Assembly: GCF_004365575.1 (NCBI RefSeq)
Contig: NZ_SOBG01000007.1
Location: forward strand, 1-64,000
Reading direction: 5' to 3'
DNA: 64,000 nt
Source of the DNA: Hypnocyclicus thermotrophus
GTDB taxonomy: Bacteria > Fusobacteriota > Fusobacteriia > Fusobacteriales > Fusobacteriaceae
Shown: positions 2,445 to 6,875 of the stretch, piece by piece
How positions within the stretch are numbered: the first letter of the stretch is position 1
How the letters are laid out: each line of letters opens with the position of its first letter
Notes under the pieces: generated by a model
Database searches by the model: none
What the model was told of the DNA's origin: nothing
What the model saw: only the letters and a program-made list of their open reading frames with translations
Program-made: the position numbers and the translations under genes

Positions 2445-2663
2445 ATGAAAATCGGAAGAATAAATGGATATACTGCTTATTATAAAAGTAGTATAAAAAA
2501 AGAGCCACAAAAAACAAAAAAGCAACAATATGTTGCACCACATGTTGAAAAAAATATTGATAAACTAGCAAGTAAATTACAAAAAATAGGATTATATAAT
2601 AAACAAGGTGCCAAAATTGTTGCAAAATCCATTGTAACGGGCAATATAAATATTGTAGCTTAA
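2445..2663 (+). CDS. flgM: FlgM-like anti-sigma-28 factor (putative)
   Basis: A 72-residue protein with a strong ribosome site (AAGGAGG) before ATG 2445. The start MKIGRINGYTAYYK, a Lys/Gln-rich middle and a C-terminal helical part ending in SIVTGNINIVA fit the layout of FlgM, which binds and inhibits FliA until the hook-basal body is complete and is then exported. Similarity is weak and the usual REKVxxIKxxI pattern is only partly seen. The near-perfect sigma-28 promoter and the presence of fliA at 46954 support the call, because flgM is commonly FliA-dependent. It is a single-gene unit closed by a terminator. Another small late flagellar protein is the alternative. Confidence 0.55.
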   Translation: MKIGRINGYTAYYKSSIKKEPQKTKKQQYVAPHVEKNIDKLASKLQKIGLYNKQGAKIVAKSIVTGNINIVA

Positions 2664-2697
2664 AACTAGAAGTTTTTAAACTTCTAGTTTTATTTTT
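2663..2697 (+). terminator. Intrinsic terminator after flgM-like gene
   Basis: A perfect inverted repeat with 13-nt arms (2663-2675 and 2678-2690, core ACTAGAAG/CTTCTAGT) followed by TATTTTTATT. It overlaps the last base of the stop codon of the flgM-like gene. Confidence 0.85.
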
Positions 2698-2709
2698 ATT
2701 TATTCTATT

Positions 2710-2720
2710 AACGTTTCCAA
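2710..2720. promoter_or_regulatory. LacI/GalR-type operator-like site, upstream copy
   Basis: AACGTTTCCAA, which reads TTGGAAACGTT on the minus strand. It lies about 40 nt upstream of the -35 of the barrel gene and is the inverse of the 2889-2907 site. The WTGNAANCG core resembles cre/LacI-family operators. No regulator gene is in the window, so the binding protein is unknown. Confidence 0.45.
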
Positions 2721-2758
2721 AATATTATAAAAAAATTCCAAAAAATATAGAATGAATA

Positions 2759-2888: not shown

Positions 2889-2907
2889 AAATATTGGAAA
2901 CGATATT
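2889..2907 (+). promoter_or_regulatory. LacI/GalR-type operator-like site, leader copy
   Basis: The 19-nt AAATATTGGAAACGATATT lies just before the ribosome site of the barrel gene and recurs base for base at 3107-3125 inside the gene. Its TTGGAAACG core is shared, in inverse orientation, with 2710-2720. Three such sites around one promoter suggest repression with DNA looping, typical of LacI-family sugar regulators. Confidence 0.5.
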
Positions 2908-2942: not shown

Positions 2943-5777
2943 ATGAAAAGAAATATTAAGGCAGTATTTTTATTAGTTATTTTATTTAGTTTTGTTTTTA
3001 CTAGTTTTTCTTTTGCTGAGGAGAAACTAGTTGTTTTACCGGGGACAATACAAAGTGCACTTGGGGGAACAGATTGGGATCCAGCAGGCGATGTAACAAA
3101 AATGACAAATATTGGAAACGATATTTATCAATTTAAAGGAATTTTTCCAGCTGGAAAATATGAATATAAAGTAGCAGTAGGTGGAAGTTGGGCAGAGAAT
3201 TATGGAATGAATGGAGAACAAGATGGAAAAAATATTAAATTAGAAATTCCAGAAGATAATACAGAAGTAACATTTACATTTGATTATAATACTAAAAAAA
3301 TTACTGATAGTATTAATGGAGAAGCTGTTGTAGAAGAAACAGCACCTAAAGTAGCTGTATTAGGAGGATTAGAAATAAGATTACCAGGGACAATACAAAG
3401 TGTACTTGGGGGAACAGATTGGGATCCAGCAGGCGATGTAACAAAAATGACTCATATTGGTGATGATGTATATGAATTTAAAGCTATATTACCAAAAGGA
3501 AACTATGAGTATAAGGTAACAGTAGGTGGAAGTTGGGATGAAAACTATGGTAAAGATGGTGCAGCAGATGGAAGTAATATAGAGTTAACAGTTCCAGCTG
3601 ATAATACAGAAGTAACATTTACATTTGATTATAAAACAAAATCTATTTCTCATAATTTAGAAATAGTAGGAGTTAATTTTATACCTGTATTAACAAATAC
3701 ATTTGAAAAAAAAGGTAAAGATGCAGATATTAATGTAACAAATGAATTTGAATTTGGAATATTATCAAAAAATTTAACAGTTAATTCAAAAACTAGCTTA
3801 AATTTTGATTTAGATCATAAAAAATATACTATTGTAGATAGTTCAATAGAAAAAGAAAACTTATCATTAAAAGATGTAGAAATAGAAGATTTTTCAGCGG
3901 ATTATAAAATAGGAAACTTAACAGTTGGAGGAATGATAAATAAATCATCATATGAAAAATCTACAGATTTTTTAGGAGTAATAGATCCAAATACAGGTAG
4001 TGATGATAGAGATAATACTAAAAATCCAGAAGATATAGCAAATAATAATATAGCAGGAAAAGTATCATACAATAATGGAATAAAATTAAATGCGGCAGTA
4101 TCTAGTTATAAAGCAGATATATTTGAAGAATCAAAAACTAAAAAAACTTTTGGATATTTGAATTTAGAAAAAACATTTGCAAACGATAAAATAAAAGTAG
4201 GAACATCAAATGGTTTATATTCTGTAAAATATGATGGTAAAAAAGAAAATACAGCAATTGATTCAACAGTATATGGAGAAATTAAAGTAAATGATAAATT
4301 TTCTTTAAAAACTGAAGTAGGATATGTACCAACAGGAACAATTGAGACAGCTATTACAGGTACACATAAAAATGGAACTAATTGGGACTTTATATTTGAT
4401 CCAGCGGATTATGATATAACTGATGATATTTCAGAAGTACATTTAGTAGGTGCGTTTAATGGTTGGGATCCAGCAGATAAAACTTATACATTAACAGAAC
4501 AATCAGATGGAACTTGGACAGGAACATTTGCAGACTCAGTAGTAGGTGGAAAAGAATATAAATTTATATATGATGCAACTTCATGGAATGGAAATGAAAA
4601 AGGATTACCTGAAAGTTCTGGAAGTAATGCAAAAGTAGAAGAAACAAATAGACTTGATCCAAAATTAGATTATGGATTAAATTTATATTTTGCAGAAGCA
4701 AATTATAATTTATTTGATAAAGGAAACTTAAAAGTTGGAACTAAATTTTTAAAAGCTAATACATATATGCCATTTGCAAGTGATGATTTATTAGATGACA
4801 GCTCAACAGGGTATGTGGATAATTATTTAAACGCAGATTATAAAGTATTAAAAAATTTAAAATTATATGTAGAAAAAACTCATAAAACACAAGAAGTAAA
4901 TAGAGATAAATTATTATCAACTAGATTAAAAGCAGGATTTGAATTAACAGAAACTCCAGTAGTAAGCTATGTAAAAGGATATTATTTAGCAGATCCACAA
5001 GATTCTAATTTTAATGCAGAATTAAAAGAAATATTTATAGAAACAAAAACAGAAAAATTACCATTAGTAAAATATATAACTGTAAATACAACTCAAAGAT
5101 TTGAATCAAAAACATCTCAATACTATGTAGAATCAGAATTAAAAGAATTTAGTAAAATGATAGAATACGTAAAAGGTAACTTAACTTATGCAGTAGATGA
5201 TGTTTATTATTCTGATCAAGATGGTAAAGCAGTTCAATACTGGACAGAAGCAAAAGCGCACAATTTACCAATAGTATCATATGTAAAAGCAGGATATGAG
5301 TCAGATGATAATGGCGGAGATGGAATAGTTGAAAGAAGTGATTATAAAGATCAAGATGATAATGATTGGTTGAAAAAATTCTATGCTGAAACAAAATTAG
5401 AAGCAAAATCATTAAAAAATTGGGATGGACTTACAGTTAATTATGAAACAAGAAAATTAGAAGAAGGGAAAACTGATTATACTCCTTCTGATTTAAATCA
5501 AGATGAGCAATATTATGTAGCATCAGAAAAATCATTTATTGATTGGTATTCAATATTAACATTTACTACAGGATATAAACTTCCTTTTGATATACAAACT
5601 AATTTTACATATAAATATGATTTAGCTCATAAAAATACATCAGAATTTGAAGATGACGCAATGAAAGTAGAGTTAGAGAAAAAAATTGGTATAACTACAA
5701 TAAATGCTTCATATAATAAACAAGATGGAGATGAAGGAGAAGATTATACTAAAGTAAGCTTTAAATCAGTATTTTAA
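2943..5777 (+). CDS. Outer-membrane beta-barrel with X25 and CBM48-like glucan-binding modules
   Basis: A 944-residue exported protein. Residues 1-25 are a Sec signal peptide (FTSFSFA, then EE). Residues about 32-124 and 147-239 are two X25-type modules as found in bacterial pullulanases (LPGTIQS..GGTDWDPAGD, KYEYKVAVGGSWAENYG, TFTFDYNTKKI), exactly 115 residues apart. From about 245 to the end it looks like an outer-membrane barrel: many alternating amphipathic strands and a C-terminal Phe (SFKSVF). At about 478-560 a CBM48/AMPK-type module (EVHLVGAFNGWDPADKTY, then YKFIYDATSWNGNE) sits between predicted strands. X25 and CBM48 modules bind alpha-1,4/1,6-glucans in known enzymes. No catalytic domain is present, so a starch/glycogen-binding porin is inferred. 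It is co-directional with a lipoprotein carrying the same CBM48-like module. I do not know a described protein with this architecture. Confidence 0.7.
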   Translation: MKRNIKAVFLLVILFSFVFTSFSFAEEKLVVLPGTIQSALGGTDWDPAGDVTKMTNIGNDIYQFKGIFPAGKYEYKVAVGGSWAENYGMNGEQDGKNIKLEIPEDNTEVTFTFDYNTKKITDSINGEAVVEETAPKVAVLGGLEIRLPGTIQSVLGGTDWDPAGDVTKMTHIGDDVYEFKAILPKGNYEYKVTVGGSWDENYGKDGAADGSNIELTVPADNTEVTFTFDYKTKSISHNLEIVGVNFIPVLTNTFEKKGKDADINVTNEFEFGILSKNLTVNSKTSLNFDLDHKKYTIVDSSIEKENLSLKDVEIEDFSADYKIGNLTVGGMINKSSYEKSTDFLGVIDPNTGSDDRDNTKNPEDIANNNIAGKVSYNNGIKLNAAVSSYKADIFEESKTKKTFGYLNLEKTFANDKIKVGTSNGLYSVKYDGKKENTAIDSTVYGEIKVNDKFSLKTEVGYVPTGTIETAITGTHKNGTNWDFIFDPADYDITDDISEVHLVGAFNGWDPADKTYTLTEQSDGTWTGTFADSVVGGKEYKFIYDATSWNGNEKGLPESSGSNAKVEETNRLDPKLDYGLNLYFAEANYNLFDKGNLKVGTKFLKANTYMPFASDDLLDDSSTGYVDNYLNADYKVLKNLKLYVEKTHKTQEVNRDKLLSTRLKAGFELTETPVVSYVKGYYLADPQDSNFNAELKEIFIETKTEKLPLVKYITVNTTQRFESKTSQYYVESELKEFSKMIEYVKGNLTYAVDDVYYSDQDGKAVQYWTEAKAHNLPIVSYVKAGYESDDNGGDGIVERSDYKDQDDNDWLKKFYAETKLEAKSLKNWDGLTVNYETRKLEEGKTDYTPSDLNQDEQYYVASEKSFIDWYSILTFTTGYKLPFDIQTNFTYKYDLAHKNTSEFEDDAMKVELEKKIGITTINASYNKQDGDEGEDYTKVSFKSVF
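3042..3451 (+). repeat. Near-identical X25 module repeats
   Basis: The 65-nt segment 3042-3106 recurs at 3387-3451 (offset 345 nt, 115 codons) with one mismatch as far as I can read. The rest of the two modules is more diverged. This suggests tandem domain duplication with selection or gene conversion on the WDPAGD region. Confidence 0.8.
3107..3125 (+). promoter_or_regulatory. Intragenic copy of the operator-like 19-mer
   Basis: Identical over 19 nt to 2889-2907, located in codons 55-61 of the barrel gene. An intragenic auxiliary operator is common for LacI-family repressors. It encodes N-I-G-N-D-I of the X25 module, so chance cannot be excluded. Confidence 0.4.
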
Positions 5778-5802
5778 TCTAAAGGGGGGGATCCCCTTTA
5801 GA
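5778..5802 (+). terminator. Hairpin between barrel and lipoprotein genes (attenuating or stabilising)
   Basis: TCTAAAGGGG (5778-5787) pairs perfectly with CCCCTTTAGA (5793-5802). The stem starts right after the barrel stop codon. No U-tract follows (ATTTTAAAAAATG), so full termination is unlikely. It more likely reduces read-through or protects the upstream mRNA, so the barrel would be expressed above the lipoprotein. Confidence 0.55.
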
Positions 5803-5840
5803 ATTTTAAAAAATGAAATCAATCAAAAGGAGTGATTAGT

Positions 5841-6800
5841 TTGAAAAAAATATTAAATATATTTTTAATATTATTATCTTTAGCAATAATAGGTTGCGAA
5901 GGTATGTTAAAAGATGCAAGTGAGGCAGGAGCTGGATTTGGAGATATAATAGTAAAACAATCAAATATTTTAATAGATTCAAATTTAGAAACAACATCAG
6001 GTTCAGGAGTAACAGTAACAGAAGGCGGGATAGATTTCACAACAGCAGAAGTAAAAATAAATGGAACATCTAAAGGGATAGGTGAAAAATTTGAAGGGTT
6101 AAAATCTGGAGAATATAAAGTAACAGTAGAAGTAAAATCAATAGATAAAAAAGACTTATATTATGGAACAGAAGTAGTAAAACTGAAAGTAGCAGAAGTA
6201 TTACAACCAAAAATAACTTTAGATAGTTGGGAATCTGCTGTAAATTCATGGAAAATAACATTTAATCCGACAGAAGCAGGAGTAACAGTAGCAAATGAAG
6301 TACATTTAGTAGGTACGCTTAATGGTTGGGACCCAACAGATAAAACTTATTCGTTAGTAAAACAATCAGATGGAACATGGTCAGCAATATATGATTTAGA
6401 TGAAGGAACAGAATTTAAATTTATTTATGATAGTACAGAATGGAATGGTAATGATATAGGAAATAATGGTGCTAATTATAAATTAGGAACAAATACAGAT
6501 GGTGTAGCAGAACCAGTGCTTGCATGGAAAATAACATTTAATCCGACAGAAGCAGGAGTAACAGTAGCAAATGAAGTACATTTAGTAGGTACGCTTAATG
6601 GTTGGGACCCAACAGATAAAACTTATTCGTTAGTAAAACAATCAGATGGAACATGGTCAGCAATATATGATTTAGATGAAGGAACAGAATTTAAATTTAT
6701 TTATGATAGTACAGAATGGAATGGTAATGATATAGGAAATAATGGTGCTAATTATAAATTAGGAACAAATACAGATGGTGTAGCAACAATGGACTTTTAA
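5841..6800 (+). CDS. Lipoprotein with two identical CBM48-like glucan-binding modules
   Basis: Start TTG 5841 is chosen because AAAGGAG lies 7 nt upstream and the product then begins MKKILNIF with a clean lipoprotein signal (LAIIGC, Cys18). A GTG at 5832 overlaps the ribosome site. The 319-residue product has a segment of about 110 residues after Cys that may be a beta-sandwich (LDSNLETTSGSGVTVTEGG, then YKVTVEVKS). Two CBM48/AMPK-type modules follow (EVHLVGTLNGWDPTDKTY, FKFIYDSTEWNGND), about 88 residues each, joined by EPVLA. The modules are close relatives of the one inside the barrel protein upstream. An outer-membrane-anchored alpha-glucan-binding partner of the barrel, similar in concept to SusE/SusF, is inferred. 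No catalytic domain is present. Confidence 0.7.
   Translation: MKKILNIFLILLSLAIIGCEGMLKDASEAGAGFGDIIVKQSNILIDSNLETTSGSGVTVTEGGIDFTTAEVKINGTSKGIGEKFEGLKSGEYKVTVEVKSIDKKDLYYGTEVVKLKVAEVLQPKITLDSWESAVNSWKITFNPTEAGVTVANEVHLVGTLNGWDPTDKTYSLVKQSDGTWSAIYDLDEGTEFKFIYDSTEWNGNDIGNNGANYKLGTNTDGVAEPVLAWKITFNPTEAGVTVANEVHLVGTLNGWDPTDKTYSLVKQSDGTWSAIYDLDEGTEFKFIYDSTEWNGNDIGNNGANYKLGTNTDGVATMDF
6247..6785 (+). repeat. Perfect 263-bp tandem duplication encoding CBM48-like modules
   Basis: 6247-6509 and 6523-6785 are identical base for base as I read them (period 276 nt, 92 codons, with a 13-nt spacer). Identity at synonymous positions means a very recent duplication or ongoing gene conversion. Copy number could vary between strains. 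Confidence 0.9.
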
Positions 6801-6833: not shown

Positions 6834-6875
6834 CCGCTAGAGTTTGAGAAATCTAACTTTAGCGGTTTTTTATTT
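6834..6875 (+). terminator. Intrinsic terminator after the glucan-binding operon
   Basis: Stem CCGCTAGAGTT (6834-6844) with AACTTTAGCGG (6855-6865, one G-U pair) and loop 6845-6854, then GGTTTTTTATTTT. It closes the barrel-lipoprotein unit. Confidence 0.9.

Follow-up and report, generated by a model that had tools for sequence, protein, structure and literature searches.

The stretch of DNA analysed here (the window) comprises the first 64,000 nucleotides of contig NZ_SOBG01000007.1 of Hypnocyclicus thermotrophus (assembly GCF_004365575.1), a member of the Fusobacteriota. At positions 2,943 to 6,800 it contains two adjacent genes on the forward strand, which encode a 944-residue protein and a lipoprotein. 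The original prediction, made from the sequence alone, had taken the pair for an alpha-glucan capture system in which an outer-membrane barrel is fused to X25 and CBM48-like modules (CBM, carbohydrate-binding module) and accompanied by a lipoprotein with further modules. Both open reading frames (ORFs) are intact at the positions given for them, and the predicted signal peptide, the terminal Phe of the long protein, and the lipobox of the lipoprotein (IIGC) can all be read in the sequence. With a probability of roughly 0.6, we regard the 944-residue protein as a starch-regulon porin for malto-oligosaccharides, which stands in place of LamB and carries its own glucan-binding modules. The two genes and their parts are the following:

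2943..5777, + strand: 944-residue protein of the order X25-X25-barrel-CBM-barrel, candidate alpha-glucan porin (intact ORF)
2943..3017, + strand: signal peptide, residues 1-25, ..SFSFA/EEK (sequence; helix in the AlphaFold model)
3030..3302, + strand: X25 module a, with Trp45 and Trp83 (profile match; predicted local distance difference test, pLDDT, >90)
3375..3644, + strand: X25 module b, with Trp160 and Trp198 aligned with binding Trp of Ruminococcus bromii Sca5 (profile, alignment, and model)
3654..4376, + strand: putative beta-barrel, first part, residues 238-478 (strand-pattern scoring; not resolved by AlphaFold)
4380..4640, + strand: CBM20/48-type module, residues ~480-566, with Trp508, Trp525, and Trp548 (module comparison and profile scores)
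4650..5774, + strand: putative beta-barrel, second part, residues 570-944, with C-terminal Phe (strand-pattern scoring; not resolved by AlphaFold)
5832..6800, + strand: lipoprotein with N-terminal beta domain and two CBM modules, probable start TTG 5841
6247..6509, + strand: lipoprotein CBM module 1
6523..6785, + strand: lipoprotein CBM module 2, identical in DNA to module 1 over 263 nt

The two X25-like modules are confirmed. The X25 model PF22058 matches the whole 944-residue protein with an E-value of 5.7e-58 in a Pfam search, and modules a and b reach 98.0 and 95.9 bits, respectively, at a curated cut-off of 27. The closest fold match of the pair is the X25-2 domain (clamshell) of R. bromii Sca5 (PDB 7rpy, E 2.2e-11), which a sequence profile also retrieves (E 8.2e-9). 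Trp160 and Trp198 align with Trp620 and Trp661 of Sca5, which are 41 residues apart both in the numbering of the paper and in the chain, and W45, W83, W160, and W198 are invariant across all seven aligned X25 pairs. In R. bromii, the tandem Sas20d2 uses four Trp to bind maltoheptaose, with a dissociation constant of 0.61 uM, and its binding of maltooligosaccharides requires the residue equivalent to Trp661 (PMC9112005). With the four X25 Trp retained, the X25 alignments keep the aromatic glucan-binding residues. Judged by homology, the X25 and CBM modules very probably bind alpha-glucan, and a role of the protein in the starch regulon is just as probable. The likeness to the Sca5/Sas20 tandem thus comprises the paired X25 modules, the four Trp, the best structural match, and a significant sequence match. 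However, Sca5 and Sas20 belong to Gram-positive amylosome proteins, whereas here the pair is fused to a putative outer-membrane barrel. X25 modules that are 38-49% identical are found on pullulanases and amylopullulanases of Bacillota and Actinomycetota, mostly as an N-terminal pair after the signal peptide. These enzymes have a GH13 catalytic part, which is missing in the 944-residue protein and whose place is taken by a strand-rich region.

The CBM48-like module that had been proposed for the middle of the barrel is real by virtue of its 49% protein identity with the modules of the lipoprotein (E 1e-21); within a stretch of 97 nt, the DNA is 86% identical. The family label could not be kept, as the module alone scores 21.1 bits against the CBM_48 profile (PF02922), just below the cut-off of 22.4. 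The same applies to the second gene product, which is a lipoprotein with two CBMs but for whose modules "CBM48" is too specific because the CBM20, CBM48, CBM53, and X25 models each match them weakly. CBM20 (PF00686) scores 29.1 bits against the whole lipoprotein and thus exceeds its cut-off of 23.3, while a single copy reaches only 19.9 bits; a six-frame search of the genome with this model gave no matches. In a weak alignment the CBM modules retain the NGW and second Trp (508, 548) pattern of the AMPK-beta glycogen-binding domain. The AlphaFold model of the lipoprotein is too weak for use (mean pLDDT 58). The lipoprotein gene starts 54 bases after the gene of the 944-residue protein. Because its GTG 5832 and the ribosome-binding site AAAGGAG overlap, TTG 5841 is probably the start.

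The lipoprotein modules are identical at the DNA level over 263 nt with a spacing of 276, and the X25 copies a and b share 72% of their residues and 82% of their nucleotides, compared to 42-62% between the copies in the pairs of other species. Given these identities, and that between the mid-barrel and the lipoprotein modules, the module set looks as if it had been built by recent duplication in place, between adjacent genes. The 263-nt tandem duplication at 6247-6785 (period 276) could be very recent, a site of copy-number change, or an assembly error. A recent foreign origin is unsupported by base composition, with a third-position G+C of 0.04-0.11 in all modules and of 0.10-0.13 in the neighbours.

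The lipoprotein had also been compared to the surface starch binders of the Sus system. Like SusE and SusF, it has a lipobox, a beta domain at its N-terminus, and a pair of starch-type CBMs, and its best match outside its own genome is a SusE-type protein (44% identity over 43 residues). Membership in the Pfam families was not found, as the lipoprotein matches neither PF14292 (SusE) nor PF16411 (SusF_SusE), both of which are matched by a SusE-like control protein. In addition, the barrel-like partner lacks TonB-receptor domains, unlike the partners of SusE and SusF, and there is no adjacent SusC or SusD homologue. The analogy is one of function: the lipoprotein would be a good functional analogue of SusE/SusF with a putative location at the cell surface, and the unit would work like LamB plus SusE/F while, by the tests made, it belongs to neither family.

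The following elements lie around and between the two genes:

2661..2692, + strand: intrinsic terminator of the upstream gene (14-pair stem and T-run), which parts the unit from the side of the glycosyltransferase and a 72-residue ORF
2711..2722, + strand: LacI-type operator ACGTTTCCAAAA, found in four exact copies genome-wide, of which this is one
2894..2904, - strand: second operator-like site, inverted, reading TTGGAAACGAT on the + strand, ~40 nt ahead of the start codon
5780..5803, + strand: intergenic hairpin CTAAAGGGG..CCCCTTTAG without T-run (sequence)
about 6834..6872, + strand: probable terminator CCGCTA...TAGCGGTTTTTT closing the bicistron (sequence)

The GC-rich hairpin at 5780-5803, which has no T-run, may make the expression of the lipoprotein and of the barrel differ. 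The 12-base LacI-type operator RCGTTTCCAAAA is present in exactly four copies in the 2.2-Mb genome, compared to 0.33 copies expected under a first-order model, and its backwards control does not occur in the genome at all. The four sites (G000 C7:2711, C1:45947, C5:193071, and C8:89271; loci L060, L064, and L067) are all located upstream of the gene of the 944-residue protein or of three lipoprotein GH13 genes, in the latter case at distances of 77-169 nt. One of these genes, whose lipoprotein GH13 product weakly matches SusG_C, is the first of an operon that also contains a sugar-binding protein gene and two ORFs similar to transporter permeases, and that resembles the operon of a maltodextrin ATP-binding cassette (ABC) transporter. 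The others encode a second lipoprotein GH13 and a lipoprotein PUD/CBM48 pullulanase. In G039, the genome of a sister species from the same genus whose flanking glycosyltransferase is 88% identical, the genes corresponding to the second amylase and to the pullulanase are likewise preceded by sites with this CGTTTCC core. There, a small lipoprotein gene (L124:3832-4368) separates the operator from the pullulanase gene, and the intervening stretch also contains a second copy of the operator. The H. thermotrophus genome contains about 14 GH13 genes, including the lipoprotein amylases and the pullulanase. At L066:6531-9413, an alpha-amylase N-terminal domain is found on a lipoprotein whose neighbour is a second lipoprotein, with a match to the glucodextranase C-terminal domain (PF09985), and both lipoproteins are retained in the sister species (L125). 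The form of the operator fits LacI-family regulators, and three LacI-family genes adjoin GH13 genes, one of them also being next to a MalK-like ATPase. The two-gene unit very probably belongs to a starch regulon, whose regulator would be of the LacI family.

In the sister species the corresponding slot, flanked by the 72-residue ORF and an alpha/beta hydrolase gene, contains a LamB gene (PF02264, E 3.7e-37). This is the sole LamB of G039, and the same profile has no match in the H. thermotrophus genome. Between the hydrolase and LamB, the sister genome contains about 700 bases of odd repeats of the ACCACTAAGA / CACAGAG type (L077:6820-7560), which are possibly tied to an exchange at the locus. 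The alpha-glucan capture role of the original prediction is therefore well supported by three independent lines: the operator that the unit shares with secreted starch enzymes, the LamB gene that occupies this slot in the sister species, and the conserved X25 Trp. However, regulon membership would also be accounted for by the modules alone, if a closed or narrow barrel just fixed them to the outer membrane and thereby attached the cell or its amylases to starch, with uptake proceeding through another porin. The tandem X25/CBM proteins of R. bromii are adhesion parts (PMC9112005), and no transport family is matched by the 944-residue protein. Against this, some 600 residues would be more than a simple anchor should need, LamB is missing from the genome, and the slot of the sister species holds a LamB gene. 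We consider an anchor without transport function rather improbable.

The porin reading depends on the strand-rich region, which extends over ~600 residues from about residue 238 to residue 944. It ends in Phe, has an alternating last strand, does not contain Cys, and is composed of short-turn hairpins and long polar loops. The earlier description as barrel-like is consistent with the data although unproven. We scored the pattern of alternating strands, short turns, and long loops with a home-made semi-Markov model and expressed the result as z against shuffles. The region obtained a z of 2.5, which is within the range of 26 LamB proteins (0.07 to 5.0), while 80 mostly soluble proteins of this genome have an average of -1.5 and a maximum of 2.1. 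Chance as the origin of the beta pattern is thus rejected by the shuffles and the control proteins. LamB is known to be a trimeric barrel of 18 strands with a greasy slide. Because the strand model overcounts LamB (21-23) and gives 31 strands for the 944-residue protein, our guess for its barrel would be roughly 24-28 strands. LamB and the 944-residue protein likely share the role of outer-membrane maltodextrin entry and the chromosomal slot, but there is no clear sequence relation between them; homology to LamB was rejected with an hhalign probability of at most 20%. Furthermore, LamB has neither CBM nor X25, whereas the 944-residue protein contains three such modules and its beta region is larger. 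A SusC-type plug or TonB-dependent barrel was not found in Pfam at E-values up to 10. Residues ~242-944 probably form an outer-membrane barrel.

With respect to topology, the original prediction had placed the CBM in a surface loop and the X25 pair in the periplasm. In the topology model, with the CBM excised by the natural cut, the module was assigned to an outer long loop in 0.82 of the samples and to an inner, periplasmic turn in 0.16. N-terminal domains ahead of the first porin strand are usually periplasmic. The chances that the CBM is outside while the X25 pair is in the periplasm are about even.

Several findings weigh against a porin of this design. Structure prediction had been proposed as a check, and AlphaFold predicted the X25 pair with a pLDDT >90, while residues 242-944 have a pLDDT <50 and no barrel was resolved. 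No outer-membrane barrel family in Pfam or PHROGs matches the protein. The soluble X25 pair reaches a z of 4.6 in the home-made test, which therefore indicates a barrel-like beta pattern but not membrane insertion. It could be, then, that the region is a secreted or surface-layer beta-structure with CBMs, an extracellular starch-binding scaffold outside any membrane, since AlphaFold does not produce a barrel and soluble all-beta modules score equally well. The C-terminal Phe with the alternating last strand, the missing Cys, the short-turn hairpins with long polar loops, and the barrel score in the LamB range argue against such a scaffold, which we regard as quite unlikely. The assignment of the CBM to the surface likewise depends on the cut, as another excised linker gives 0.40 for the outer loop and 0.46 for the inner turn. 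This slight preference would speak for a porin with the CBM in a periplasmic turn; in other arrangements the X25 pair would be outside, or both would be on the same side. Such arrangements seem improbable given the outer-loop preference with the natural cut and the usual location of N-terminal porin domains. Finally, the LamB of the sister species has the opposite orientation and no operator, and the replacement may be a coincidental insertion. A direct one-for-one replacement is therefore only inferred; functional replacement of LamB is the simplest reading.

Genome searches have also limited the distribution of the system. The original prediction had proposed a search of other Fusobacteriota for the gene pair, and none of the 95 other genomes of the order encodes a counterpart of either gene in this architecture. 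The system is therefore lineage-specific and not widespread, and so far comes from one genome. When the whole 944-residue protein or only its putative barrel was searched against a further 95-97 genomes from the order or phylum, with E limits of 0.001 and 1, a single match at chance level was obtained. In species-representative genomes the relatives are X25 modules only, nearly all on pullulanase-type GH13 enzymes. Apparent X25 matches in other genomes of the order are weak, and the three that were opened are CBM48-type GH13 domains without signal peptide. An apparent relative of the lipoprotein in another genome (G045) is a SusE next to SusD on one contig (C62, L128), probably a Bacteroidota contamination. 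Literature searches, confined to open-access papers, retrieved no description of a porin with starch-binding modules of its own, an absence that is weak evidence.

From the modules, the shared operator, the enzyme set, the conserved Trp, and the LamB that is present in the slot of the sister species and absent here, we infer a barrel, its pore, its topology, its ligand, and its regulator as follows. The two genes would form one transcription unit of the starch regulon, with a LacI-family regulator acting via CGTTTCCAA operators. Lipoprotein amylases and the pullulanase of the same regulon would cut starch, which the lipoprotein would bind at the surface in a SusE/SusF-like role. The mid-barrel CBM would hold alpha-glucan at the pore from a surface loop, and the 944-residue protein would pass malto-oligosaccharides into the periplasm, standing in for the missing LamB. 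The X25 pair, a maltodextrin clamshell most likely located in the periplasm, would take up the emerging chains, and the co-regulated MalEFG-type ABC transporter would import the products. In its full form, it is a toss-up whether a porin equipped for starch capture on either face, by a surface-loop CBM and an X25 clamshell opposite, displaced the maltoporin in one Fusobacteriota lineage, independent of TonB, unrelated to SusCDEF, and with modules duplicated in place between adjacent genes. The motif of the regulon already supplies a list of the partners of the unit, and LamB at the same site in the sister species allows a direct comparison of the two loci. If the porin reading is true, glucan-binding modules in a passive porin would represent a second design next to Sus, in which starch binding at the surface is coupled with entry into the periplasm, and the maltoporin would be replaceable by an unrelated protein.

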